A stretch of 64,000 nt of DNA. Origin: Agelas oroides. Lineage: Eukaryota; Porifera; Demospongiae; Agelasida; Agelasidae. The notes below the pieces were generated by a model. It saw only the letters and a program-made list of their open reading frames with translations, ran no database searches and was not told the DNA's origin. Numbering within the stretch: position 1 is the stretch's first letter; every line of letters starts with the position of its first letter. This document shows positions 13,501 through 63,900 of this stretch, piece after piece. The stretch is from positions 18,851,353 to 18,915,352 of the forward strand of contig OX422185.1 in the NCBI GenBank assembly GCA_949130485.1, given 5' to 3'. The translations under genes were made by a program, and so were the position numbers.

Positions 13501-16500
13501 CCAAAAGGAGCTTTGCTACTTGTGTTGTAACCATTGCCAGTGATTTACTGCCAAAGGGAGCTTTGCTACTTGTGTTGTAACCATTGCCAGTGATTTACTG
13601 CCAAAGGGAGCTTTGCTACTTGTGTTGTAACCATTGCCAGTGATTTACTGCCAAAAGGAGCTTTGCTACTTGTGTTGTAACCATTGCCAGTGATTTACTG
13701 CCAAAATGAGCTTTGCTACTTGTGTTGTAACCATTGCCAGTGATTTACTGCCAAAATGGGATGTTGTGACTAGAGAGTGTTCAAACACAATACTGTACAT
13801 TTCACTTCCTACCCCTCCCTCCCTTTCTCTCTCTCCTTTATTTCACTCCTCACTCCCTCCCTCCCCCCCTCAGCCTCCCAGTGCAATGTTTCTCTCCATT
13901 GGTCTCAACCAAAAGGTCAGGAACAGCATCCAGACAGTCTTCACCCTGGCTCATCGTCATAGCAACATACTCCGGGAGGGATGGAAGAACCTACTAGACT
14001 GCTTACTAGCACTGTTCAAGGCAAAACTTCTACCAGAAGGACTTGTGGAGGTGTGTGTGTGTGTGTATGTGTGTGGGTGGGTTGGGAGTGTGGCTTGCAA
14101 CATTTAGCATGTTGATTGATTGATTGATTGATTGATTGAATTTGATTATTTTACCAATGAGGAATAAATACATGAGCGGTCAATGCCTAAATGCACAACC
14201 CTAAACCTCAACTGGAAATAAAAATTTAAAAGTAGAGGAAAGTTAAAAGCCAGCCAGTTGCTGGAAATCGAAACCAGAGCTACCAGTGCTCACCAGCACT
14301 CACAATCCTCTCTATGTACTGTACAGGTGGTACTGAATGCCTCAGTCGCACACCTGGCAACCACTCAGTACATGTCATCAAATATGTTGCATCCCTCCAC
14401 AATGATATCATATTCCATATTGTACTATACTTGGCAAATTCAGAAAGCTTAGAAATTGCTGCAGAAGGCGAAGATGGCCTCCCCAACATACACCCACATA
14501 ATTATATGACCTAAAGTGCATAGGAACGGGTGACTAAAGTAAGAGTGTGTAACTCTATGAAATTTGAAACTGGTCGGAATTTACCATGAGTACTAAAAAT
14601 AGTAACACGTACTGCTCATGCTGTGTAGACATTGCCCGGACTTAACACGTCCAAGTCACCCATTCTTATATGGTCTTGTATGACCTATGATACACCTTCA
14701 TCTCGAGCTGTTTGTGTGACATCCTGTTTCATGAAGTAGTGATACCATTTGGTCGTACTAGTGAGGAGAGCTTTATTTATTGAAGTGAAACTGTATTCTG
14801 CCTTGGGAGGGAGATTAACTGCAAATAAACTTGCACAAAGAATTGGAAAACAACTTGACTTGCATTTGGTACATACGGTCCTAATATTGCATTATTTATG
14901 AATCTCTAAACACCTTAGCTAACAGTGTTTCTTGTTAGACGAACAGCTGGCAGAGACCCCACTTCATGCATACGGATGATTCCTGTCATTAATGGCTCCA
15001 TTATTACTCACAATGCATTATTGTCCCTCCCTCCTCCCTGCCCACTCTTCCCCCTCTCCACTTCCCTCGTTCATTCCCCCCCCCCTCTCAGGTTGATGAC
15101 TTTCTCCACCCCGAGGGTAAAGTGTCTCTATTTCGTGAGGAAACTCCAGTTCGGACTGACTCTTCCCTTCTCAGCTCCCTCTACTTCTACTGGGTCAGCA
15201 ATGACCAATCAGGAAAGGCCCTCACCCCAAGCGAAATACGAGCACGAAAAACTGCACTCAAGTGTATTAAGGTACAATACAATGTACAATGTACCTGACG
15301 TCATTCACGTAATAAGTGTTCCCCGTTTTTCTCCGCTTTTCCGTGTATTATACTAATCGCAAGACAGAGAACAAAAGTGGGGGAGGCCTGGGAGCGAGGC
15401 TACTCAAAAAACAATGAATGAGATAAATAAGTTAACTGTGCTCACAAACAGCAGAGATTCTCGTCCTAGCTTTTTGGTCACATGTCATAACTTCATGCAT
15501 GTACTTTTAGGTAAATTTACTGCTAGTTGATACACAATCTGTTGGATCAGCACTGCACTTTGCTCACGCTCTGTGCATCTGGAGGTGATGGTCCTAAATA
15601 TTCCCCCATGATGATAAATCATCTCTATATATTGTGAATGTAAAGATGTGCTGATATCAACTGGCATGCTTCTGGCAGGATATTAATAGGGTTTCAGTAA
15701 CAGCACAAAGTCCACTCATCAAAGTGCAGCGACCTAGCTGCCACCCACATTCCAGTATTATGAGGAAATATTATTGAGCTAGCAGTGTCTGCACTGATAA
15801 TTACTACTTTGCATGTAATGCTTTTGAAAGCAGTCAAACAATTCTCACAAGTTGTAACCCATGGACTATTTCTGAGCCAGTGTTGTTTTAGGTAACTTTT
15901 AACTAAATAACTTAGTATGGCCTTTGAAAATTTTAGTTACCATATTTCTTCGATCAGACGCCATGGCTACTGTTTATTTCGCTGCTCATTTTGTGCGGCT
16001 ACTATTCAAGGGTGGCGTTTATTTCTTTGGAAAGCCTGGAGACATCAATGACAGCTGGATGGGGTACATACGAGTGAGACGGTGACGGTTGCTAGACACT
16101 GTCAGTAGTATGCGCAGCCTCTCAGTCCTGCTGTCAGCCGTGGGAACGACTCGTACAACACAAACAGTCCTAGCGCTAAGCGTGGTGACCGTCGTCAGAA
16201 ATCATTCGCACACATGTGCACATGCTGCATTTACTAGCCGCGGCTACTATTTGAGGGTTGTGTTTATTTTGTTCAAGAGCTTCGGATTGTGCGGCTACTA
16301 TTCGAGGGCGGCGTCTATTTGAGGGTGGCATCTATTCGAAGAAATACGGTAATCAAAACTACAACTAACTAAAATTACTGTCCAAACTGGACTCTGCACA
16401 TGTGTAGGACTGTCATCCAGAACAGCTGTTCTCAGAGTCTAAATTCCTGCGTCAAGACTCTCTCCTGGAGCTGACAAAGGCACTCACATTTGCGTCACGA

Positions 16501-19500
16501 GGTCCAGAACACCACCAGACGTTGGGGACACTCTTTGACGAGGACTCTGCTGTGTTCTTCCTAGAGCTGCTAGTGTCAGTGGCACTGGAGAATAAGTGAG
16601 TTTATGATTGTATATCAGCCTCATTCCCAAGCTCTCATGTGGGGGAAGAATGAGAGCCTGGGAATGAGCTCATCTACATTGTGTAACATGTACACACTGC
16701 AGACAGTGAGTCCCACCTCCCCTTACGTGGTTACTTTGTGGGATGTGAAATTTTAATTCCTTTGGTTGCCTTGTATGATGTGGGTTGAATTCCTTTGGTT
16801 GCCTTGAGGTTGAATTCCTTGGTTATGTCTGGTATGTCATGACATAAAGTAGTTATTACATAAGCCAAGTCTATATCGATATTTTAAAACAGTGTGCATT
16901 TGCATAATTACGTAGCTGAGATTTACCTGAACACACAAGAAGCTGACACAGAATATAGGAAATTTGAACCAACAAACCTATATTCCTACTTGTGAAAGGT
17001 TACAACTTACCAAACACTAGCATACTAAGTTAATGCGTCATTTAAGACTTTTTCCATGCAGTGATAGATTACAATTTCAGAAATGAACCTCATATGATGA
17101 CATATCATCATATCATGACATAAAATTACACGACATAATGATCTAGAATTTAGCCATGTTGTGGCAGCCCTAGTAGGATGTGAGGTTTATTTCCCTTGAG
17201 AAGTAGCCTCATTCCCAGGCCCACTGGGGAGGACATGGGAATGAGACTAGGTAAGGTGGGGGTAGTGGTAGAGGGGCATGGCATATGGAAGCCAACCACC
17301 TTCCCTTGGTTGCTGTGTGAAGATAATGCACTCATGCGTTATTAAGTGCATGCGACAGTGGAATGTACCTAACAAGGAAGTGCATTTAGTCTGTGCTTTA
17401 TTTACAACCAACACTTAATGCCAAATATGTGCTTTTAAGATCTTAACAATGTGCAAGTTTCCCTTGGTTGCTGAGTGTAGGGATGTCCCTTGGTTGCTAT
17501 GGAGCTGTTCCTGTATAGCTACCACTTGGGGAATTTCAGACAGCCATGACAGACTGCATCAATGATAAAGTTAACTGACAGACCTTACAGTTACTGTTTG
17601 GAAGGTGCTAATAAGCTGAATGTGCTTAACAATTGCCGAGTGTAGGAATATCCCTTGGTTGCTATATTGGCAGTTGCAGCTCTGGGATTGTCTTGGATTG
17701 TAAGCTGCAACTTAGAGGTAATTACTGATTTCAAACAACTGACAGACTGCATCAGTAGCCTTGCAAGTATATGGGCCAAGTTGTCGTGAAAGTTTATAAT
17801 TTTACCATGGCCCCAGCCCATGTCGAATTTTTGTTACTAAATTTAACTTGGTAGTTGCTCTGCCACGACCCACCAATAGTAGAATGATATTATCATGCTA
17901 GAAAATGTAGAACATTGTGGGGGTGAGCCTGAGCAAGCAGCTACTATGGCTACACATAAAGAGACTAAGCTGAAGTCATGAGCTGGATTGGTAGCGTTTA
18001 TGAGTGCCGTTTATGCACGGGCCTTACCTGAAGCGATCTCAACCCGGCGTGTATAATTCGTACCGTCTGCGAGCAGCCTGCTGTTGATGGTCCGTAGCTG
18101 CCGTGACAAACAAGAAGTAAGGTGCCGTACATGCTTTAACTTGAGCCGTCTCCACTACGGTTGCCGACGCTGCACTCTGGCAGTAGCCCAGCATTGCCAT
18201 AAGTGCACGAGGATGTTCAATTTTCAGAAAATATTTATGTGTATTTAAAAATTTATGGTATATGGCCGCAAGCAGACATACACACGTGTCTTGCAATGCA
18301 GTCCCACTAGTATGGGGCTCGCTCAGCCTCACCCCAATAAATATGTGCACAACTTCTCTCGCTGTTACTTAACTGTTACAAAACTAAGCTACTGTTCTAC
18401 CTGTTACTAAATGTAGCTTTGCTGGATGTGATATTGCCCAATCAATAAGTGCACAGTATTCAAGACAGGCTAAAACATTGGGCACACACATGCACTTTTG
18501 TGGCCTTTCTCAACAATACTATAATGAGCTGCCAGTCTAGTTCAGGCTACATGAGTGTAGTCAGTGCCATAGAAACATGATCCTTCTCTTCATCGTGCAA
18601 CCTTGCAGATATCATGAGCTGTAGCTTCAGAATTGGTGCTCTTTGCCAGTCTAGTTCAGGCTACGCAAGTGTACTAGCATAGTCAGCACCATAGCAACAT
18701 ACATCTTCATCTTGCTGCCACTTCCAAAATTGGTCAATGAATAGGTAACCGAGATAGGATTACCTATGCACAGCCCTTTCCTAATGCAGTTAAAATGATA
18801 TTCATTACATTACTAGAAAACAATTGTTACTAATGAACTCAGGAATGCAAGATTCCATGAGGCCAGTTGTGCATGTTCATTCACACCGTGGTGAACGTCA
18901 ACACAAATATTCATAGAACTGGATCACTAATACTTCACATGCACATTTAGCATGTATCATATTATTTCCCAGAAGTTGTGGCGTTTGTATCTACAGTGTT
19001 TCTTCTTATACAATTATTTAATTCAGTGTCGTGACATCTGGTATAGTATTTGTGCACTGAACGTTTCTTTGATGAAAAGAACCATGAAGAACAGGTTGCT
19101 GAGGGATAGTGGGAGCTCTCTTGAAAACGTTCAAAAAAAAAAAGAAGCCAGTGATCTATAATTAAGCTATTTAGCTTATCAATCTCTGGATATGTACAAG
19201 GTGTAATATGCACTGCACCTTCTCAAACTTTGCAAGCTAGCAGAAACAGATCGTGACTAACAAGGCCCTGGATTGTGCTGATCTCATATCGATCTTCTAT
19301 TCTTCCTGTAGTAAAGGAAGTGTGGTACCTTCTCAGCTAGTTGATGTTTACACCACTACAGCAATACTTCAGCTTTCCACCCCCAGCCATCATGTTACCA
19401 AGGAGATGGAAGCTGTTGATTCTTCTTCAGTTTAGATCAGGCTATAGTATCTTCTTACAGTGAAAACCACTCCCAACTGTCACCTAATGAGCTCCTAGGG

Positions 19501-22500
19501 CTGCTGCAGGAAGTTGCAGCTTCTGAAACCACAACTGGTGTAGAAAACAGACCCATGTTATTTGCTGATATCGGCTGATCTTCTATTCTTCCTGTAGTAA
19601 AGGAAGCGTGGTACCTTCTCAGCTAATTAATGTTTACAGCAATACTTCAGGTTTCCACTCCCAGCCAGGTAGTCTTGTACACACCATCATGTCACCAAGG
19701 AGAGTACAGTCAAGTGATGTTCTTCCTCAGTCAAGATCAGGCCGTAGTATCATCTTACAGTGAAAACCACTCCCAACTGTCAACTAATGAGCTCCTAAGG
19801 CTGCTACAGGAAGTTACAGCTTCTAAACCACAACTGGTGTAGAAAACAGACCCATGTTATTTCGTGTGAGGAAGTGGCGACATCAACATGATGATATAGC
19901 ACTGGATCACTCATAAGTTCACATTACATTTTTATTCACATAAATTATTTACATTAATTAATCACATACATTTGTATCTGCCTGTTACAGTGTTTCTTAG
20001 TGTGCAATTATGTTCTTCAGTGTCGTTATGAACTGGACATCTGTTGTAGTGTTTGTGTGCTGAGTTTCTGTGAAGGTGTAGTGTAGAACAGACGCAACTG
20101 TTTTCAACTGGCTGAGGAGTGGAGATCTTTAATGGAGGTTTGTCAAATTGTACAAAGTTAGATTGTCCAGTGACAATATTATTATGTGTACAGTCGTGTT
20201 CCAATGTATCATTGTGAACTGGACAGCGATGATAGTAACAAACATTCACTGAATTTCCATGGACGTGCAATGAACTGCAAATACACCGATCTTCTACTGC
20301 CTGGGGAGTGTCCAGTCGACCATCACTTGGTACAATCAATCCAGGAACAGTGTTCTTACTCGTACAATTGTGCTCCATAGTATCATTGTGCAGCGGACAT
20401 CTGTGACTGTATTTGTGTGTCAACCTTCCCTGGACGTGTGAGGATAAACAAATGCAAGCATCTTCCCCTCTCTTTCCAGCATGGATGGTCTCTGACTCTT
20501 CAACAGCCACTGCAATTTCTGTGGGAGAAATCCAACAACGAGTGAAGCTCATGATGTGTAGCCAACATGAACATTTTTTGCGGTCCCGCATTACATATAA
20601 ACTCGCTTCTGAGCATGCGCAATCGAAAGGGTCTTTCCCTACTCGGAATTCCCCTTACCGGCTTCTTTCGATTCACGTTGGAAATGAGCATAGGGCGGTT
20701 ATACATCCCCCCACAGTACTATTACGCACAACGCACACACGCAGCTGCAGAATAAATACACAATTATGTTTTATAAACAAACTTAGCTAGTAGTCTCGGG
20801 AGGAGGGTCTGGGAACGAGACGATCTGTTTGTAGCCAATGTGGATGAATATATTTGGGCCCGAGAGACAGCAACAAAAAAAATACATTTTTTTGTCGTAT
20901 TGGGCTTGCCACAGAGTTGCAGCATATCTGGGCTCCGAAGCAGCTTTTTTAAAAGCATACAATGGTTGTACTACACACACTAGCTGCTATCGGGAGCTCG
21001 ATGAATTCATGTAAAGTACACCTTGCGTGTGCGTGGAAACTATGGAGCTATTTATACCACAGTTTACATACCCGCAGCAAAGGCTTGTGGCCGCCACCGA
21101 TCACCGCCGTGCCTGTAAACAGTTCGTCCCTCCTGCACTGCCTCGAAGGTTAACACAAACGACCACGAACCTCGTGCGATGTTCGGTCTGCTCGCTGCCA
21201 TCACTGTTCGCGCGTCGAATAGTATTGGAGATATTGTAAATATACACTGCACAAGTCTGGTGGAAAGTACTGAAGGCGGCAGCAACGACCTACACGTTCG
21301 TGATCGCAGACTATTTTCGACAGTAAGCGAGAGCGCAAATGCAATCTGCAGCAAGTGTGGCGGTGTTATAAGTTACACTTATAGGCTTACTATGATTACG
21401 AACCTCCGTTTCCGGATGAATTCCGGCGGCAGCACGTTATTAACGCTTGTCTTATTCGGAATGTCACTATGAATACGTTTCCTTGCCGGTATGAATTCCC
21501 TTAACTGTTGGAGTACGCACCTACACTAGGAGACATCCTGGATACAGCAACCTTACCAGAAGAAGAAAAGATGCTAAGCTCCTTAGATAGATAGAATTTT
21601 ATTTTGACATCAGGAATGCTGTATCTACATATCAGTAGATTTTCATACAGGTCAAACAGACAAACAAAAAATGATAGTCACTACACAGTACCAAAAGCAA
21701 GGCTCTATAAGGTTACTTAATAACCACAACACATGCACAGGACTATGAAATAATGCCCTCGAGCACTACAGAATTATAAAATAGCTTACTTACTAAAGTT
21801 TACAAGAAGTTTTGCTTCGCTTCTTGTAATTTCTAAGTATGCAAGATTGACTTCACAAGCTGCAAACAATGGTGCACACTCTGTCTCCTGCAAGCATCTT
21901 CTTTTCGCATTTGCTATTAAAGTTGTTTAAGTGTGTTTGCTAAGTATGACTAACTTCTGTGCCCAATACTTGTAGTCTGCCAGTGTGTGTGGTGAGTCTT
22001 GGCAGTGAAAGACACTGTTCCTGAAGATCTTGGGCAAGTGCAACAACAAGTTGGCTCCTCAATACTAGGTTGAGTGCAACAAGAAGCGGTGTTTGAATAC
22101 CCATTAATTGAGGTGGGTAGAACATCTGGGTTTAGCAGCTTTTCAGCATACTCTGTAGGTGTCATGAAGCTGTGCACTACAAAACCAGAACTTGCCAGCT
22201 TGGTTCTTCAGGTGAGAGAGGTGTCTCACTGTTGACGGTTCCAAGTCTTCAAAGTATGCTTTAAGAATATTAAAAACAGCCTCTGCAACTGCCATCATGC
22301 ATGCACCCACATCAACATGCTCAGGGTATGCTGCTGACTCGAGCTTTACAACATGCAGGGGAACATGTGGTGTGTCAGGCAGAGTCTTGAGGATGATGAC
22401 CGACGGGTGACCATTTTGTGTGTTGTTAATCAAACTCCGTCAATGGTAGAATAGGAGAGGTAGAGGAGAGAGAAGCAGAAGAGAGAAAGAGGAGAAGAGA

Positions 22501-25500
22501 AGGAGAGGAGAGAAAGAGGAAAAGGAGAAAGAAGATTAATTGCTCATGCATGCACGTGCACACATGCATGTGGACCTACCTCAAGGTGAGTGCAAGCTGG
22601 TCTGAGAAGCAGCAGTATAACATCTGAAACGGGAACACTTGGAACTGCTCAGGTAAGGGAATAAGTGATGAGATAGGTATCTCATACTGACCACCATAGT
22701 CTGGAAAATAATAAGTATTATAAATTAGCTTGGAAGCTTTTGGTGCTATCTCTCCTCTGTTGATTGATTGGATAGAGTTCAGGAATGTTATTAACTCCAT
22801 TATCCTTGGGGTGGGAAAGCTTTGAAGAGGAATGAAAGGAGAAATGAAATGGGGAGTGGAAAAATGAATAAGTTCTTACCTTGATCAGCAAGTTGTTGGT
22901 GCAGACTTGATGGCTCATTGTCATGGAGCTCAAAGAGAATAGTGCCTCAGTCCTGGGTGCACTCATTACAAATTCAAGCCGAGCTTCGATTCTGCTGAGT
23001 TTCAAAATTGTTGCCTCTCAGATCTGGTAATACTCCAGCCACTTGGTCGTACTGTTGTTGGATGTGCTTGAATTCCGGGTGGTCTCTGACATAGTCCTTC
23101 CCCAGCATAAGAGTTAACAGGAAGGGTCTGTCACGAAATGGAGAGCTGTCATTGGTGTATAAGCCTGAGGATAAGTAAACCTCGTGACAGCACGATCTCT
23201 CCTAGAGATGGCTTGGTAGAGGTGTGTGCCTGTCGGGAATGTTGATGTGATGTTTGACAGTTCGTGTAATCCCAGGAATGGATATTTCCTTGTTGACATG
23301 CCTCTAAGGTACGTTGCAGTGCTGTCAGAGTTAACTGAGAATCTCCAATCGTTGTGGGAGAAATTTAGTGCAATGTGGATGCTTGCGCCAAGAAGACTGA
23401 TCGATGTGTCTGCTACCACCATATCCAAGTTCAGTGATTGTAAAGAAACGCGACTATGGAAATGGCTTTCATCTGTCCGTATTTGAAATACATGAAGTAG
23501 TATCGGTATGTTATGTGTGGCTGTAATGTGCCACAAACTGGGTTTCAATGCTGTTGGAAATAGCTGTGATATCGTCTTTGTAAATGGGGAAATAAAATGG
23601 AAGGGTATTTGAATGTCTGGCGGTTGTAACCAGGTTGTTGGATCTAGTCTGGGATAGGAGTGACAAACCTTCGATTGTTGGAATAAGAATGTTTGTGTAG
23701 AAGCAAGAAGTGTATCACTGGACTTGATTTGTTCTGCTTCTTCTGGTGTGGCAGTGTCATTTACCTAAGATGTTGAGACTTGTAACTCCATGAATTTGAA
23801 GCCAGGGTTGAAGTTAGCAAGTGGACGTAGTATTGGGTAGTAAGTCGTGTTAAAGAAGTCGCATTTAGAGAGGTACGGTCGTTGGTCGGTGACTTTGCGA
23901 GTGGTGTAAATTCTCTCCTCTCCGAATGCGCATGTCTTGAAAGCAAGTAGTGACCTAAAGTAGTGAAAACTTGATAATATAAGCTTCCTCAAAACACATT
24001 AAGTTAATTAGGAGTTAATTAGGAGACAAATTCCATCAACATCTGTTGTATATGACATCATCTGTCTCAGTGACGTTAGGGTCATTGAAAATGGAGAATT
24101 CCCCTTCCATCAGTAGAGGGGACGATGTCGTGTTGAGATTCGGGTTGCCATTCTGAGGTGGAACAGTGGAGTTCTGTTGGATTAAAATTGTTCTGTAAGC
24201 ATGACGTAATCAGAAATGGCAAGAATTTTCACCTTGCTACCATAAGAAGCTAGGGAGTGAATGTGCTCAATGCAAGAATGCTTTCAGTATTTACTCTCAG
24301 ACCCCTTCTTTGACCCTTTAGGGCCGATAGCGTTTCAGGACCCCTTCTTTGACCCTTGACCTTTGACACTTGACCTTTGACCCTTTAGGGCCATAGCGTT
24401 TCAGGACCCCTTCTTTGACCCTTGGCCTTTGACCCTTTAGGGCCGATAGCGTTTCAGGACCCCTTCTTTAAATAGTTAAACCATTGGTCTATTTTTTAAG
24501 GGTAAAATTTCTCACCAGGTTTCTACTTGCTGAGGGGATTTTTCAACATTGGTTTCCACTGCAGTGCAATTTCCTGTGAACAACAATCCCCAAGTGATTT
24601 TCATTCCTCACTACCATAAGGAACCTGGGCGTGGGTTCAATTTAGTATCTTGTTACTGTTCTCAGTCTCGTTTGATTGGTTGGACCAGAATAACACAGCT
24701 CATTTGGGGATGTTATCATAACTTCAAGAGTTGTTATGCAAACACTTGTGCTAAAGTTACGTAAAAACCATGCCTGGGTTTGTAAATTATGTAGGACAAT
24801 TTCTGGATTTGTAACGCTACTCCTGGATTTGTAAATTATATAAGACAACTTCTCAAAGAATTTTGAAAGTGCATGCACCTAATGAGGCCCAAACCACAGG
24901 CATGTATTTGGTTAATGAAAAGTTTGAGTGTGTAATGGCAATGAAGACTGCTTTGGGGAACCCGCAAAAGTGGTCTAAATCTTGTAACAAATTATCACAA
25001 GTTGGTTTGTGATGTGTACTTAAGCATTCTTTACCTGGGTATTTAACCGCTGACTTCTTTGATCCGTATTTTCACTTCTGTTGTGGAAGTAAAGCTTCCT
25101 TTGTACAATCTGTGTAGGTTCATGACCTTCACCACACCCACCCATTAGCGAGCTTTAGGGCTATCCAACCAGCAAACGCTTCTCCTGACTGGAAACTGCC
25201 TACAGTGCCAGAAATGGAGTTCCTGCGAGGGGAGAGGGGTGGTTTCCGACCAAGGCTTTTCTACAGCCAGCCAAGACAGCCGCCATGTGCACGACAACCC
25301 ATGTCTAAACCCACCCATCTCCCCTATTCAACTCTTTTGCTACCGCAAAACCTATCTTCAAAACAGATTGCACCAACTGATAACGTGCAGCCAAAGTTGG
25401 ATGACAGATTTTCAAGTCATCGATCATTTAAAGGATTTTTTGCCCTCTGCAATAAAAAATGATGTCATCATGCACTCTTGAGGTTAATAAAAGCAGTTTC

Positions 25501-28500: not shown

Positions 28501-31500
28501 AGTGGCAGAAACTAGTAATTGTTGTCCATAGTAGCATGCTTAGCAGCTGTGTTATATTAGAGTGTTGAAGCAGTACAGAACAGTGTACCACACACAGAGA
28601 AAGAAAAAAATCCATATAATTATCTCGTGAAAATTCACCGTTCAACACACTGTTGTAGATAAAACTCGCTCAAGTTTGCCCCAACAAGTGTGTTCATTGT
28701 AAGCATGAATTGTAATGCTAATACTCGTGGGTATAAATTCCGGTCTTAGGAAGCAGCCTTTATTGTAATCTGGTCTGCAGCAAATATTCACTAGCAGTAT
28801 TGTTGTTTCAAATTGCAGTCTAAGTGTATTCATGGCAACAGTTGAAACCATTTGTAGCCGTCCCTCGTCAAAATCTGATATTATTGTGTTACAGCGTTTA
28901 ATGCCAAACTTCCATAAAAGGTGAGGCTCACACACGCTGTGTATACACATAAATATCTGACATGTCTACACAGCCGCATGTTAGCCCCACCCATAGTGAA
29001 AGTTTGGCACTATTAATAGCACATCAAAGGCTGTAATGCGATCGAAATACACGACAGAATACTGTTCAACCGTGACTGCCACTACTGAGTAACAGGAGAT
29101 GAGTATAGAAACTTTATTTCCCACGTACACGTTTGCATCTGTCAACTGTGTGATTGAATTGGTAAGACACTGCATGGGGGAACCCCTCTGTACACAGCAG
29201 TCTGAAATCACCAAACTTTCTAAGGCAGGCTTCAAGAGTGAGCTATGTAAATCTAGCCTCGTTTCCATGCCTCCCCCGTTTGTGTTAACAATAATACACG
29301 GCTGGCGAAGAACGGGGAAGGCCTGGGAGCATTCATCACATGAATGACGTCAGGTGGACACAAGGTGGACACAAGGTGGACGTAGAGGGGAAGGGTCCAG
29401 CTGCCAAAACAACACACTGGGTCATCCATTCGAGCGCTCTATTGCAGTTTTGGACTCCAGACGTTAGCGTGATCAAAACTACTCGCTCGTCTTGAACGGT
29501 AAGAAACTCGCTTTCAAGTTTGGTACGTACATATTTGAATATCGGCCCCTCCCTCAGAGTCCCTCCCTATGTCCACCTCATGTCCACTCACGTGATGAAT
29601 GCTCCCCCGTTTTCCACCGGTCTTCCACAGTAAAAACTGGGAGGCCTGGGAACGACAAATCCTCTTAGAAGCCTTGTAGGAGTCGTGGTTGCTGCAAGTG
29701 CTTCCAGATGTGTTGATTCGATTTGTGGCCATTGCAAAACACTTACGCAGCCCACTCTTGAAGCCTGCCTTAGAAAGTTTGGTGATTTCAGACTGCTGTG
29801 TACAGAGGGGTTTCCCCATGGAGTGTCTTACATGTTGCAGCCAATTCAATCACACGGTCAACACATGCAAATGTGTGCGTGGGAAATGAAGTTTCTATGA
29901 TCAGAAAACGAGAATTTAGTCGGCTGTGTATGTGACTGGATATGTTGCGCATTCATTTCTATTTCCGATATAACCTTGCTGTAACTGAGAACTGAGATAA
30001 GGCTTCTGTGGGAGAATAAAGATCATGTCATATGCTCAATTAATTAACTGCAACATGCACCGATGCTCCTACTCAATAATACATGTGCTGACCACTCATG
30101 TGTGCAGCAGTATCCTTATAAGGCAGGCTTCAAGTGAGTAAGTGTTTTGTAATGGGACACAACTCAAATAAGCAAAACTGTCTGGAAGCACTTTACAAAC
30201 ATGACAGAATGTTGCTTAGTAAGGACGTTGGAGATGAAACGGTGACTTGTGAGCTGCTGCCAGTCGCTTGACTCCCGTTAATGGGGCTGGTTGTCACCAT
30301 CACAGAATCACCACATGGCCACGTTTCCACAAAACTTTAATTAAATTTCCTCACAGAATCTGCCTATTATGCTTGCATTATGCTCAATGCTTTTACCTAT
30401 TATGCTTATTTAATGCATAATCCACGCACCCCTAAGCACTTCACAAACATGACAGCCATACAAGAATGTCGATCCAAGATGTCCTAAACATTTGTACTGT
30501 CACTAACAAGTGTTGTGAAGTAAATGTACAATCATTTATAGTTTTTGTGAGTATTTGTGGTTTAAGTGGAGTGAAATACTCTGAGTGATAAATATGTTTG
30601 TGAGTATTTGTGGTTTAAGTGGAGTGAGTCAGGTGTGTGAATTTCTCCCCAAAGTGTAAACAATTAAGAGAGTAATCTTCCTGTTGTTCTAGCTGTTCTT
30701 CCTTGTGGTGGGTTAAATCACATCAGATGACCTAGCTAGCTTGCAAAGTTTTAGACATGTGATCATCATTGATTTCTGTGGTTTTGTGTCACATCATTTC
30801 CCTCTCCCTTCCTCCCTGCTCCCCTCCCTCCTTTCCTCCCTCCCCCTCCCTCCCTCCCTCCCTCCCTCCCCCCCAGTTACTGGGTTCCCTTCGAGTCCTC
30901 CTCACCCTCCCTCCCCCCACCACGCCCCACATGAAAGAGATTCACAAACAAGTCTCCAACGGCATTACAGAACTCATCCACTCACACGCCGGCACCATCA
31001 AAACCCCACATGATTGGTCAATCTTCTTCACCATTCTTGAATATGCAGGTGAGTTTATGATACTCTCTAATAATCACGGTATTACTTAACGACATGATTG
31101 TCATAAAAAATTACAGTGGGAAGTCACTTAGCCGAACTTCATTATCCGAATCTTCACTTATCTGAACCCCCAAAACAATCTTTCAGTGGCTTCTTAGTTG
31201 CTACATAAAAGAAATAAATAACAGTTGTTCACACTTTTTCACTTTCGCTCAGTCAAAACGGCGGCAAGTTATTTTCCAAGCTCAAGTTGGTAACAGATAA
31301 CCTCTTCATTTCCCAAATAATTTGCTGTGCATTAAATGGGCTACTTTGCATTCAAATATTATTGTTTCACTTATCTGAACACTCCTTGGTCTGAGCATAT
31401 TAGGATAATGACTTCCTACTGTATGTAGCAATGCTCATCCCTATACACAGGTACAGGTCTTTCCCAATATGGCCCTCAAGGACAAGTTACTATGGAAACA

Positions 31501-34500
31501 GTCACCATGGAAACTGGATCACATGAGCTGGGTGTGGCTACAGCAGCAGATGGGGAAGTCCCTGCTAATTATGAAACAATAGATGGGGAGCAGACTGATT
31601 CAAACACGAATCACCTAGCGTCTGATTGGGTGTGGATATCGGAAGCGGAAGGAGCTCAGCGTCCGGTGATGTCGTTAAATCAATTTGACTTGCTGGTTGA
31701 GGAAGCAATTCCAGCCCACGAACCTCACGCATTCTTCAAATCCTGCGAGACTCTAGCCTACCTTGTTAGAAGTGATCCTTACGTGACCTCCGCTAATTTC
31801 AGTGGGTGTGTTCGATGTATCAGGACCTTCTCTGAAATCAGTGCAACCTCAACTGCGATGGAGTATGATCGAGTGCACACGAGTACTGTATCAAAACCAA
31901 GCTCAAAGCGAGATCGAACACGATCGCCAACTCGACTCACCCAACCATCCTCCTCCTCCTCATTGTCCAATCAAAACACTGGAAGCAGTTTGACATACAC
32001 AACAGTGTCGCTACGACTACTGGATCTACTTGACGCACTTTACTCGCGTGTTGGGAGAATATTCGACTCCGAGACCGTCACTAAACTGCAGAATGAAGTG
32101 ACTTCAATGGAAAATAGAGCAAAAGCTAACACAAAGCTAGACACTCAACGAGAAGGCCGCTCACAAGTTCTATCCTCCACTGATGTCACACAGGGTACAA
32201 CTACCGAGGGTCGACCTGCTAATCCCGCCTCTCCCCGCCATCCCTACTGTCCTGAAGCTGACCAGGACAAGGGATCTTGTTCTAGGACAACTGTCACTAC
32301 TAGTGGCCTCCTGTGGCATATGGCGTGGTGTCCGCTGCTGCAGGGGATGGCTCGCATGTGCTGTGATGCGAGGAGGTCTGTACGACAGACAGCCATCACG
32401 TACCTCCAGCGTGCTCTGTTAGCTCATGGACTACAGAGTTTGAGTGCTCAGGAGTGGGAGGCATGTTTTCTAGAGGTGAGTATCTTAGGAATTATCTGAT
32501 TTTATAAGGTTGCTATGGCAACCACACCCAGTGGCAGTCTTTTATGAGGTTAAGAGGTATTTGCCAGGAATGGAGAGTGAAGACACTCATTAGACCCAGA
32601 AATGGAACCTCACATGACCACCACTGATGATGGTAGTGTTGCTATGGCAACCACACCCAGTGGCAATCTTTTATGAGATGATTAAGAGGAGAGTGAAAAA
32701 GCTGGTAGTTGCCCGGAATGGAACCCCACCACTCAGTATGTGCCATCAGAACTCCGTTCCAGAACAACTGGGATGGCTGTTGGGTATGTGACTGAGGCAT
32801 TCAGTACCACCTGTGCAGTACATATAGAGGATTGGGAGGGCTGGTGGTTGTCCGGTTGCTGTAGCTCAGTGGCAGAGCACTGGCGGCTCAAGCCAGGATC
32901 CAATTCCCGGCAACTACCAAATTTTGTTTCACCTTCTTAATCACCTTAATCACCTAAAAGCATCAGATTAAACCGATGACGCTTTTTGGCGTTGTCTGAC
33001 TTTGGCCGCATGTTATCAGTTGGCGCAATCCGTTTTGAAGATAGGTTCTGCCCTAGCAGAAAGGGTGGGACAGGGGAGGTGGGTGGGTGCACCCCTCTGG
33101 GTGACGGTGCATGGCAGCTGTTGCAGTTGGCTGTAGAAAAGCCCTGATCAGCGCCGGGTGGGCCATTTGTCTGCTTTCTTGCACAAACGGGCGTAGAAAA
33201 CACTCCTTTCACCTTGTAGAGACTCCATTTCTGGCATTTTAGGCAGCTTTTAGTCCAGAGGAGCGTTCTCTGATCAGAGGGTCCTGACTGTTGAACGCTC
33301 ACTAATGAGTGGATGTGGCTAAGGTCGTGAACCCACAGAGAATGTGTCAATAAAGCTTTGACTCAAGTTTCCAGTGCTATATAGCTCCAAGCAGAAGTGG
33401 AAATATGAACCAAGGAAGGTATCAATAGCCTAATAAAGACTCCAGTAAATAGCCCACAGTGGTTAAAGAGTTGCTTTAGTTCCACAAGATGTTCTAAAAG
33501 GAGTCATTATTATTAGATTGCACCGTCTTCCACTCATATTTGCTAGTAGCATCACGTACGGCCTTGTGACTTACAAGTGCATACACAGCGCATAGTTGTC
33601 TGTAACCATAATTTAAAGCAATTACCTCATCATTGTAACCTGAACTTGCATGTTTTCAGCCATTTTTGGTCGTTTTGAGCATTACCATGCTACCAGACTG
33701 CACCGCCCCCCTCTCACATTTACTACTAGTATCATGTTTCAGGTACAGTTGCACCTGGTGACTTACAAGTATAGTTGCCTGGTGACTATCATCATTAACC
33801 CTGACATCCAGTGTAACAACCACTTGCACAATCTTCCATTTTTAGTCATTTTTTGAGCATTACCATGCTACCAGACTGCACCGCCCCCCTCTCACATTTG
33901 TTAATAACATAACTTTTCACATACGCCTTGTGACGTACAGTTGCAAGTTGTCTGTAATCATCATTAAAATTAAACCATTGACCCTGCACATCCAGTGTAA
34001 CCACCACTCTGCACAGTTTACCATTTTTGGTCATATGTGGTTCTACTAGCCATGAAACCACAAGAGATATGATATCTTACTCATCCCTGCATTATATGCT
34101 TGTTACCCACCCATACATTGTGCTTTGGACAAACACCCAATCATATGACATTATAAAGTTGTTAGCAGTCTTGTGCATGTGACGAACCATCAACCATGCA
34201 TTTCACAGTTTAGAATGATCTCGTACTCATACATCTAGTGATTAAATCACAAGACATACGATATCTTACTCAGCCCTACATTTGTAGAGTGTGTACTAAC
34301 CCCATACATTGTACTTCAAGTCATTTTGTCATTTCGTGACATTAAACTTAAACCATTGGCCCTGCATCCAGCATAACCAAAAACTTGCACCATTTTCAGC
34401 CATTTTGGTCATTTTGAACATTAGCATGTGGTTCTACAAGTCATGTAATCACAAGGCATATGATATTTTACTCAGCCCTACATTATAGTGTTTTATACTC

Positions 34501-37020
34501 ATCAAGGTAACCATGGTGACCGACCTCGTGAATATTTTAGCATGTCTAATGTGTTTTGAAATTTTTGGCATTTTCAACATCATATTTTTAGTGAGTAGTC
34601 TAACCAATAGTCACAAGCCTGCAGCCCCGCATTATAGAGTGTGTTATGCTTGTTACCCAACCGTACATTGTACTTCGGATTAACCAAGTCATTTTGTGAT
34701 ACTTTCATAATGACATTATAAAGTTGTTCGCAGTCTTGTACATACGAACTATCAACCATGCATTTCACAGTTTAGAATGAAATCATACTCGACATAATAG
34801 AGTAGTCTAACCGGTAATCACAAGATATCTTACTCAGCCCTACATTATAGAGTGTGTTATATTTGTTACCCACCCATCATTGTACTTCAAGTCATTTTGT
34901 GACATTAAAGAATTGTACTTTGAGTTGGTTTACAAGATGTTCTTCAATCATGAATTAAATGAACAGCACTGAAGTGCGGAACCCTCGGCGCAAGCTAGAT
35001 GATAAGTGTTTATGCTTATCCGGTATTACACTGTGGGCATACCTTTCTGAACCTCTCGCAAGAGACAGTCACTTGGTCACAACCGTCTAAGTTCGACGAG
35101 AAAACCACAATACCACGTGCTCCAAGTCACGTGACCACATATTATTACAGAGAGGTATACGGAAACATTGCACGTTAAGAAAATGGCTGACTTAGTCGTG
35201 GTAAGTTTATAACGCTTCTAACTTTTGAACTAAGCAGTTTAAGAGAAAACAGCTTTTTAGTTTTACTGAATTTTCCGTGCTGTAGCCGCTGATACCTCTC
35301 GTTGGACGCCTAAAAGCGTGAGAAGGCAGAATAGAGAAAACGGACAAACAGACACACAGGACAACTACTGTAACCCTCGCGCATGTGCGCCGAGGGTTAA
35401 TTATTCTCTAGTGAGTATATTTACACTTGTAGTCTAAATTGCCCTAGTACTATGAAAAGATTTGAATTAGAAAACTTGAATGCTCACGAGTGAAGACACG
35501 CTTTCTAGAGGTTATTAGCCTTGAACCAGACTTTCCATATTTTGTCTTTGGAGAAAATTTGAATGAAAAGCGTGTAGAATGACGTTTCTCCACACAATTA
35601 CAAATTTCACACATTGCTTATCAAGACCTTTATATAGTCAGGCCAAGTATAACAGTTTGTAGTAAACTTGCTGCGTTGTTTGTAGTAATTGTTGTCTTGT
35701 TTGTAGTAAACTTGCTGCGTTGTTTGTAGTAATTGTTGTCTTGTTTGTAGTAAACTTGCTGCGTTGTTTGTAGTAATTGTTGTCTTGTTTGTAGTAAACT
35801 TGCTGCGTTGTTTGTAGTAATTGTTGTCTTGTTTGTAGTAAACTTGCTGCGTTGTTTGTAGTAATTGTTGTCTTGTTTGTAGTAAACTTGCTGCATCGTT
35901 TGTAGTAATTGTTGTCTTGCTTGTAGTAAACTTGCTGCATCGTTTGTAGTAATTGTTGTCTTGTTTGTAGTAAACTTGCTGCATCGTTTGTAGTGAACTT
36001 GCTGCATTGTTTGTAGTAAACTTGCTGCATTGTTTGTAGTAAGCTTGCTGTGTTTGTAGTAAGCTTGTTGTCTTGTTTGTAGTAAACTTGCTGTGTTGTT
36101 TGTAGTAAACTTGCTGCGTTGTTTGTAGTAAACTTGCTGCGTTGTTTGTAGTAAACTTGCTGTGTTGTTTGTAGTAAACTTGCTGCGTTGTTTGTAGTAA
36201 GCTTGCTGTGTTTGTAGTAAGCTTGTTGTCTTGTTTGTAGTAAACTTGCTGTGTTGTTTGTAGTAAGCTTGCTGTGTTGTTTGTAGTAAACTTGCTGTGT
36301 TGTTTGTAGTAAGCTTGCTGTGTTGTTTGTAGTAAGCTTGCTGTGTTGTTTGTAGTAATTGCCGTCAATTAGAGGGTTTACCTTTGAATCTTCCAGGACA
36401 CACAAAGACTTGTATGTACATGAGTAGGCTTGGGTTGATTGTGTTGTCTTCATGAAGCTGGGTAGCTATGTGAACCATTTGGGTATTCATGGTCAAGTAG
36501 TTTTTATGAAGCCAGCCGATGCACTGCCATGGGTAGCTATGTGAATCATGTGGGTGTTCATGGTCAAGATAGTTTTTATGAAGCCAGCCGATGCACTGCC
36601 ATGGGTAGCTAGGTGAATCATGTGGGTGTTCATGGTCAAGATAGTTTTTATGAAGCCAGCCGATGCACTGCCATGGGTAGCTATGTGAACCATTTGGGTG
36701 TTCATGGTCAAGATAGTTTTTATGAAGCCAGCCGATGCACTGCCATGGGTAGCTATGTGAACCATTTGGGTGTTCATGGTCAAGATAGTTTTTATGAAGC
36801 CAGCCGATGCACTGCCACGGGTAGCTTGGTCAAGACTATCCTTATTGCCTTCATAGAAGCCAGATCAAGATCAAGATAATATCATTATTGTCTGTCTCTT
36901 CTTCTTGAAGCTCAGTAAAACCACCCACACACAGGTGTTGGATAACTCAGTAAAACTCAGTATTCTTGAGTGTGAACTTGGTATATTATACTAGACTTCC
37001 TGGGCAGTCTAATGTAACAT

Positions 37021-45207: not shown

Positions 45208-45411
45208 TTATTTAACTGTCCTGCCACAGTGCCAGTTGTGTGGAGATACATCTTGGTGGAGAGGACAAGCACTCAAACTTGGACACTCATACTCCAACCT
45301 TCCATGCACAAATAATGATGGACCACAACAGTTCTCCACCAGTTGGGGGTATGGAAGCGGGATTGGTGTTGGGGAGTCAGACTGTGTATCGTCATCAGTG
45401 GAGGTCTCCAC
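45208..45411 (-). CDS. Terminal exon with a diverged Cys/His module
   Basis: On the minus strand the acceptor ccaacag precedes VETSTDDDTQSDSPTPIPLP, then PYPQLVENCCGPSLFVHG, CPSLSACPLHQD and HNWHCGRTVK, ending in TAA. It aligns with the modules at 19962-20518 (PQPVENSCVCSTLHLH...CPVHNDTEEHNC). The exon starts in phase 0, compatible with the coiled-coil exon at 47348-47608. An AATAAA on the minus strand near 45041 could end the transcript. Function is unknown; zinc binding is a guess from the Cys/His pattern. Confidence 0.6.
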   Translation of the reverse strand: METSTDDDTQSDSPTPIPLPYPQLVENCCGPSLFVHGRLEYECPSLSACPLHQDVSPHNWHCGRTVK

Positions 45412-47347: not shown

Positions 47348-47608
47348 CTGAAACTGTATAATTACTGCATGACTTCCAGTCTCCTGCAAATGTTCAACTT
47401 GTAGATTTCTCTGGTGCATTGTACGTTGCAGCATTTCTAACTTTACCCTAATTTCATTTTGACTCTCGTCAAGCCTCCTCTCCAACTCCGCCAATCGATC
47501 CTTCAGCAGTTCGATTTCGCTGTCGTCCTGCCCTGTGGGCAGTTGCAGGCCGAGTGGGCTCCGTGGGCGCCGAGTGATTGTGCTCCACGAACTCTCGTTT
47601 TCCATCAA
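47348..47608 (-). CDS. First exon of a small coiled-coil protein
   Basis: The minus strand opens with two Met codons (MMENESSW), then IELLKDRLAELERRLDESQ and a further charged helix to VEHLQETGSHAV, ending FQ before a consensus gtaggt donor. It has 87 codons in phase 0. Heptad-like Leu spacing at residues 32-75 predicts a coiled coil. The family is not recognised. Joining it to the terminal exon at 45208-45411 would give 154 residues; more exons between are possible. The intron between them is filled by a 96-bp repeat and short transposons. Confidence 0.6.
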
Positions 47609-61968: not shown

Positions 61969-62015
61969 GTAAATTAGGGTAATAATAGTAATTTATTCAG
62001 CTTGGCTCATTACAG

Positions 62016-62514
62016 AGACAATAAATTGTACAATCAAACCAGATGTTGTTACACCACAGAGCACAGAGATGCCCAACTAACAGGCCTTCTGGTGAAGCAT
62101 TTCAAGAAGACCTCCTTCAAGGACTGGCAGCTTACTGTGATCAAAGCCACTGTTGATGGAAAGAATTCCTTCATAGTGCAGCCAACAGGATCAGGGAAGA
62201 GTCTCTGCTTCCAGTTTCCAGGAGTTGTTACAGGAAAGATCACAGTTGTTCTCATGCCAACTGTGAACCTTATCATGGATCCGGCTTGAGGCAGCAGGAG
62301 TAAAGGTTACTTACCTCGGGAGCATGCAGAAAGACACCGGAGTCTTGGGGAAGGTGTCACAGGGCCAGTACGATACCATTTTGTGCGCACCCGAGTCCTT
62401 CTTCAACAACCTTGGGCATCCAAAGGCAGTCTTCAAAAGCTTGGCGGTCCAGAGAAAGATTGGTCTGCTGGCAGTCGATGAAGCTCACCTAATTCGGTCA
62501 TGGAGAACCTTCAG
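62016..62514 (+). CDS. RecQ helicase exon with Walker A and DEAH box
   Basis: Two acceptors 15 nt apart (attcag at 62000 and tacag at 62015) are both in phase with exon 1. The exon carries SFKDWQLTVIKATVDGKNSF, PTGSGKSLCFQFPG and, after one frame shift at 62287, LEAAGVKVTYLGSMQKD and VDEAHLIRSW. The donor is gtatga. Confidence 0.7.
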
Positions 62515-63135: not shown

Positions 63136-63198
63136 GTAAGTACATAAATTAAAACTACTGTTTGCAATGACTCACACATGTATCTTACTAACATGTAG

Positions 63199-63900
63199 AT
63201 TTGTCTGCGTGAATCTTGCCGGAAAATGTCGGCGAACTGTGATTCTGGAGCACTTTGGAGAAGATGCAACAGCTGCTACTTGCGAGGGAGTCTGCTGTGA
63301 TGTGTGTGACACTCAGCCAGAGATGGCCAATGCGCAGAACGAAATAAGTCTAGTGCTGAAGACTGTGAGAGATCTCCCTGGTTATGGAGAAGTGAAAGTG
63401 AGTGCTAATATATCAGACAGAATCAGACAGAAATACATTCTTGTTCATTATGGCATCACATTTAGCTTGCTGAAGTTCTGCGAGGGTCGAAGACAGCTTC
63501 CAAAGCTCCACTTGCCAGCAGCCAATTTGGAGAGGGCACATCACTAGGTTTGTCCCTTGATACCTGGAGAGCTCACATTCGTCAGGCCTGGATTCTGGGG
63601 TTGCTAGAGCGAGAAATGAAACTTGGAAAAGGGCACAATCTTTTAGGTCAGATGACTTTCAACTCGTTTACACTCTCTGAAGCAGGCAATGCATTCCTAG
63701 AAGGTCCCCATACGCTGATCCTCCCAGTTCTTGATAGCAAAAGTGGGAGAACTATAGTACCAGCAAAGCCAGAAGAGGATGAAAAACCAAGACGAAAAGG
63801 CAAAGGTTGCCATGCCATTGAAGGCATTAGGTCGCTTTTGAGCTCTTGTGAGAAGTGGTTCACAATCACTGCCAAGGAATCTTCAGGTCCCCTTACCCTC
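63199..63900 (+). CDS. RecQ zinc-binding and winged-helix exons
   Basis: GKCRRTVILEHFGEDATAAT, CEGVCCDVCD and DLPGYGEVK precede a 68-nt intron (63398-63465). Then come LAEVLRGSKTASKAPLASSQ, LDTWRAHIRQAWILGLLERE and FTLSEAGNAFLEG. This is the RecQ C-terminal zinc module and winged helix. The entry from the previous exon is out of phase. Confidence 0.7.

Follow-up and report, generated by a model that had tools for sequence, protein, structure and literature searches.

A candidate family of small Cys/His-module genes clustered on one chromosome of the sponge Agelas oroides

Introduction

The described systems closest to the genes considered here are the AN1-type zinc finger, the CCHHC finger of MYT1 and the TRIM/RBCC proteins. 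As defined in the part of the published account used here, AN1 is the pattern C-x2-C-x(9-12)-C-x(1-2)-C-x4-C-x2-H-x5-H-x-C (PMC9696418). Here, we analysed 64,000 nucleotides of the demosponge Agelas oroides (contig OX422185.1, positions 18,851,353 to 18,915,352; this whole stretch is called the window). Its minus strand carries a gene with a small Cys/His module in tandem, which an earlier note on this DNA had described as unrecognised and as apparently under selection at the level of the protein. We find two types of module genes, A and B, whose copies lie together on one strand of one chromosome. Our preferred reading, to which we give a rough probability of 0.55, is that they form a family of tandem genes for small proteins of the cell interior, built on a zinc module that probably serves for interactions and is seen so far only here.

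Results

The type A gene of the window

The earlier note placed three units in a minus-strand terminal exon with an acceptor near 20518. Both statements hold, as the frame from 20518 to 19962 contains all three units and closes with a stop codon, and the acceptor CAG stands immediately 5' of 20518. Together with a first exon in phase (21201-21072) it forms a two-exon gene, with a spliced product of 228 residues that include 14 Cys and 19 His. The features are the following, with approximate limits for the three units.

21072 to 21201, minus strand: exon 1 of the type A gene, with ATG at 21201, 43 codons plus one base, and donor GTATGT at 21071
20519 to 21071, minus strand: intron, GT...AG
19962 to 20518, minus strand: terminal exon, which continues the frame of exon 1, holds the three Cys/His units and closes with the stop codon
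20340 to 20465, minus strand: unit 1, GEDACICLSSHVQG...RCPLHNDTMEHNCT...VPG
20166 to 20297, minus strand: unit 2, VEDRCICSSLHVHG...RCPVHNDTLEHDCT...VTG
19980 to 20108, minus strand: unit 3, VENSCVCSTLHLHR...RCPVHNDTEEHNCT...VTG
18992 to 19072, minus strand: damaged fourth unit, about 1 kb downstream of the gene, where the frame reads RCHDTELNNC

An AATAAA lies at most 35 bases past the stop codon; none is found within 90 bases past the stops of the paralogs A2, A4 and A5 (see below). The fourth unit, which had been announced as damaged and about 1 kb downstream, is real: it is 73% identical to unit 3 at the DNA level over 90 columns, and has lost about three residues of RCPVHN and the His of the second half. 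Between the stop codon and this unit, at window positions 19276-19862, about 300 bases are directly repeated with 81% identity. The motif proposed for the start of the unit, C-x-C...H-x-H, stands in part. C-x-C and the first His are borne out, with C-x-C-x3-H in all nine type A units available, but the second His is Q in six of the nine (unit 1 has H-V-Q).

Paralogs retain the gene structure

Two paralogs, A2 and A5, lie on the same chromosome (C3), with terminal exons at C3:18944209 and C3:19085122. They retain the start codon, the reading frame of exon 1, donor, acceptor and splice phase of the window gene (A1), and would code for 220 and 169 residues. Immediately upstream of the conserved ATG, a 2-base gap shifts the reading frames relative to each other. 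When A1 is compared with A2 or A5 (blastn, E 1e-6), matches cover both exons and extend up to about 90 bases upstream of the ATG, and the introns give none. This contrast between exons and intron is as expected for a gene, and not for a DNA repeat. An isolated copy of exon 1 near C3:18994000 has intron sequence in common with A5, and the genome search with exon 1 finds four places, all on C3 and all on the minus strand. In A4, a further copy at C3:19054091, the terminal exon contains one unit and its acceptor is in phase, as judged by eye; 1 kb upstream, tblastn gives a weak candidate for exon 1 (E 0.097). The fifth type A place is a partial unit at C3:19020608. In a tree of the units, the second units of A1, A2 and A5 cluster (support 0.87), hence the repeats seem to predate the copying of the gene; other supports are mixed and unit 3 of A5 is not firmly placed. 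On these comparisons, the copies in better condition have the look of genuine protein-coding genes.

Selection on the module

The claim of protein-level selection came from the similarity between units 2 and 3, said to differ almost only at third codon positions. Over RCPVHNDTxEHxCT, five of the 14 codons are identical and six differ at the third base only (those of H, N, D, T, H and C); the others comprise one two-base synonymous change in Arg and two amino-acid changes (L/E and D/N). A check of the ratio of nonsynonymous to synonymous changes, which the note had called for, agrees with the claim. Among the three units of the window gene, the proportion of synonymous differences (pS) is saturated, at 0.74-1.07, and that of nonsynonymous differences (pN) is 0.22-0.27; the ratio pN/pS is 0.21-0.36, and its bootstrap intervals all stay under 0.61. 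Between the terminal exons of A1 and A2, over nearly the whole exon, pN/pS is 0.43 (bootstrap 0.30-0.67). Units 2-3 give 0.39 for A1-A5 (0.25-0.63) and 0.35 for A2-A5 (0.18-0.70), and exon 1 gives 0.26-0.54 in its three pairs, with upper limits of 0.59-0.95. Comparisons of single units yield ratios of at most 0.50 in 12 of 12 pairs. Among 12 type B modules, described below, pN is lower than pS in 64 of 66 pairs, which are not independent, and the pooled ratio is 0.31 (bootstrap 0.17-0.52). Purifying selection on the protein is thus supported for the module family by the patterns of substitution.

Type B genes

A unit had also been reported at 45208, in a separate gene. The unit is real and the gene is separate, but the module is of a divergent second type, which we call type B. 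The gene has two exons, which splice into a protein of 153 residues.

47348 to 47605, minus strand: exon 1 of the type B gene, with coiled-coil heptads (by eye) and donor GTAGGT; it groups with the type B first exons of the cluster
45208 to 45411, minus strand: terminal exon, with one divergent module, VENCCGPSLFVHG...ACPLHQDVSPH..., acceptor CAACAG, phase 0

A search of the genome with a type B sequence finds 14 places, all on the minus strand of C3 between 18.896 and 19.128 Mb. Weaker type B fragments occur at four places outside (C17, C3 at 7.3 Mb, and two on C2); the three examined, which include one from C2, are each a single short piece. Matches on C11, C16, C17 at 1.89 Mb and C2 at 25.36 Mb (E 0.15-5.5) were dropped from the counts; the C11 and C2 places examined have frames in common and resemble a dispersed repeat. 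Type B exons show regular heptads by eye, and several weak Pfam matches are to coiled-coil families. No RING or B-box is matched in Pfam by the four sequences scanned (the two exons of the window gene and two sequences of the cluster).

Relatives of the first exon (E at most 0.01) number 12 in the cluster plus one at C3:17736370 on the plus strand, in a genome search that missed the first exon of the window gene itself, known from other comparisons. This outlying first exon (C3:17736370-17736843) is 1.1 Mb off the cluster, on the opposite strand, and is followed by coiled-coil frames. A motif scan in three frames of the 4.5 kb at C3:17736000 gave no Cys/His module.

One family in one cluster

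We built a hidden Markov model from the nine type A units and ran it on the open reading frames of 260 kb, with reversed copies as decoys. The six type A frames take ranks 1-6 and 12 of 12 type B exons fall within ranks 7-20. Two other unreversed frames stand among the latter, at ranks 16 and 19, and one of the two runs antisense to a type B module. Three more unreversed frames follow at ranks 21-23, before the first decoy at rank 24 (E 1.5). Single type B exons have E-values from 0.00075 to 0.22, and as some are this weak the case for kinship between A and B rests on the whole set. Compared directly, the two profiles match with a probability of 89% (E 2.3e-6).

The ligands agree with this match. 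Counts were made on nine type A and 13 type B modules, leaving out the fourteenth type B place (C3:19127692). C1, C3, P, H3 and D are invariant in 9/9 and 13/13, and H4 is present in 9/9 and 12/13, giving the common pattern C...C-P-x-H-x-D-x3-H. Type A has in addition C2 and H1 (both in 9/9) and C4 (7/9). At the start, where type A has its C-x-C-x3-H, type B has adjacent C-C in 12 of 13. Judged by their sequences, A and B modules have a common origin and belong to one family.

All 19 places of the two branches are on the same strand of a single chromosome and fall within 0.26 Mb, and genome searches outside this cluster find fragments and one partial gene only. As far as can be read from the assembly, this is a tandem cluster of about twenty related small gene copies, larger than the earlier note saw. 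One could see in it a non-coding or transposon-derived repeat with accidental open frames, given that the region is rich in repeats and that type B module fragments occur elsewhere (C17, C3 at 7.3 Mb, C2). This would leave unexplained the synonymous bias, the conserved splice phase, the intron that does not align and the restriction of near-complete copies to a single same-strand cluster. A DNA repeat or transposon was rejected since exons align without the intron, pN/pS is below 1 and exon 1 is confined to the minus strand of C3; we regard it as very improbable.

Searches for known relatives

That the module is unrecognised holds against the Pfam and PDB sequences, where no match is significant. 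Pfam has nothing for the module in the two exons of the window type A gene or in the type B sequences, and when 20 modules are searched singly one of them gives a weak match (DUF2043, E 0.021). NCBIfam has nothing for the type A exon or the type B terminal exon of the window, and gives weak matches for two coiled-coil sequences. Against the PDB, a single sequence finds one match (E 2) and a profile finds three, none significant. Pattern matches in viral contigs (31) and in bacterial and archaeal genomes (10) include no relatives. We found no paper containing CPVHND, and related literature searches gave nothing relevant. Four further matches of the CPVHND type were discarded, as their frames are 38-39 codons long and lack the remainder of the module (two were read in translation, and the other two are listed with the same frame).

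Of the PDB profile matches MYT1 is the best, along a stretch with a common G and the CP. One might hence think of a DNA-binding module of the CCHHC (MYT1) class, or of another known zinc-finger class, diverged past detection. Yet E is 1.2, which is chance level, no such match appears in Pfam, and the ligand order and spacing of MYT1, as we take them to be, do not fit the module. We think this quite unlikely.

The type A unit ends in C-x2-H-x5-H-x-C, complete in seven of nine units, which is the spacing of the last four AN1 ligands in the part of the account used (PMC9696418), and it is this end that aligns, without gaps, in a local alignment with five AN1 sequences taken from the sponge genome itself. 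One could then read the module as an AN1-type zinc finger that has diverged strongly, with the proteins as adaptors in ubiquitin or stress pathways. Two defining features of AN1, as that part of the account gives them, fail. Instead of the first pair C-x2-C followed by x(9-12), type A has C-x-C-x3-H and type B C-C, and no conserved Cys pair corresponds to the middle C-x(1-2)-C-x4-C in an alignment of 20 modules. The profile match is within the range of decoys: local hhalign against AN1 scores 15.05 (probability 6.4%), a value exceeded by 5 of 200 decoys made by shuffling the AN1 columns. An AN1 model from the same genome has no A or B exon among its 20 best matches, and Pfam scans of the exons and modules give no AN1 match. 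Membership in AN1 was therefore rejected, and a far-diverged relative seems unlikely.

Surroundings

Sec7 matches lie just before the window, at C3:18838755-18848730 on the plus strand, and the GBF1-like repeat PF23325 matches inside it, at 31429-32496 on the plus strand, with 26.9 bits, just below the 27-bit cut-off. With these two anchors, the type A gene probably sits antisense in an intron of a GBF1-like gene. We presume that the plus-strand frames 13694-14104, 14919-15353 and 40995-41375 are GBF1 exons; Pfam gives no match for them and PDB searches do not confirm them (one SEC7 protein, E 0.74). The host has integrin beta, which marks it as an animal. Further along the plus strand, 61978-62286 and 63140-63544 look like exons of a RecQ-like helicase (DEAD, E 1.3e-8; RecQ zinc-binding just below its cut-off). 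On the minus strand, two blocks of short tandem repeats at 35610-36864, with LLQTTQQVYYK-like and ATHGSASAGFIKTILTMN-like units, are open in several frames, and an open frame of 216 codons at 23117-23764, without Pfam match, is in part 80% identical to a copy near C3:19047000.

Discussion

We propose that the cluster encodes small intracellular proteins built on a zinc module. Type A proteins would consist of a leader of 43 residues and up to three modules of about 40 residues, and type B proteins of a coiled coil and one C-terminal module. Each module might hold one structural zinc through the quartet C1...C3-x2-H3-x5-H4, the extra Cys and His of type A serving a second site or none. The modules would accordingly be small units of protein interaction, at work in the cytoplasm or the nucleus; by eye the proteins have no signal peptide, and no prediction was computed. 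Several modules could be displayed together in both types, by the coiled coil in type B and by repeats within one chain in type A. We infer the zinc site, the cell location and the role, for which protein interaction seems the likeliest; binding partners would be guesswork.

Alternatively, the proteins could buffer metals in the manner of metallothioneins, the number of units setting the capacity and no fixed fold being needed. The type A protein of the window has 14 Cys and 19 His among its 228 residues, and paralogs vary between one and three units. But residues other than ligands are conserved as well (P, D, mostly G, and hydrophobic positions), the spacing is nearly fixed, and type B modules are poorer in Cys and stand beside a coiled coil. 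We consider metal buffering improbable. The common ligands, the nearly fixed spacing and the conservation of non-ligand residues favour a folded module with one zinc.

Several observations weigh against the proposed zinc-module family. Some paralogs give signs of relaxation or decay: the end of unit 3 of A2 is lost by a frame shift; A5 has two units only, and R in place of the last Cys of its unit 3; A4 is down to one unit, and the family also includes fragments. In five of the 12 single-unit pairs (A1u2-A2u2, A1u3-A2u3, A2u2-A5u2, A1u3-A5u3 and A5u3-A4u3) the upper bootstrap limit of pN/pS is at least 0.96, so that single-unit comparisons between close paralogs are weak. Five of the 12 aligned type B modules end straight after SPHT or SPHK, with a common insertion there. 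The early stop is seen inside the search match in four of these five. These shortened copies do without the C-terminal HNWHC and were probably duplicated after the stop arose. One type B module has D at H4. Finally, structure prediction, suggested in the earlier note and run with AlphaFold2, gave low-confidence models without usable fold or metal geometry, with a mean pLDDT (predicted local distance difference test) of 47.8 for one unit (20 rows) and 30.9 for the exon (4 rows). The exon model has a beta hairpin per unit at pLDDT of about 29-40, to which we give no weight.

A more ambitious proposal goes beyond the tandem family of zinc-module proteins. The module might be a metal-binding domain of a new kind that comes with two sets of ligands (C,C,H,C,H,H,C in A and C,C,H,C,H,H in B). 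The same-strand cluster would then be specific to the lineage and expanding, and its genes would vary in module number, as might be expected of fast-diversifying intracellular proteins of recognition or defence. We hold this possible, if rather doubtful.

Short Cys/His modules missed by domain libraries are a likely source of animal 'orphan' genes. This is an orphan-looking family, and its general interest is modest unless the fold or role proves unusual. It offers 22 related modules (nine A, 13 B) in one segment, with replacement of ligands between branches, which makes the essential residues directly testable. A new fold would add a domain to the zinc-finger repertoire; otherwise, the family shows how far a known fold can drift.

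The proposed zinc-module family can be set against three known systems. Relative to AN1 (PF01428), the first three ligands of the end, C-x2-H-x5-H, are kept in 9/9 type A and 12/13 type B modules, and the position of the final Cys is not kept in type B. With the CCHHC fingers of the MYT1 type, the likeness is that of a short Cys/His module in tandem, with weak similarity around G...CP. The TRIM/RBCC proteins, in which RING and B-box precede the coiled coil, resemble type B in pairing a coiled coil with a small Cys/His module; in type B, by contrast, the module is C-terminal and follows the coiled coil.

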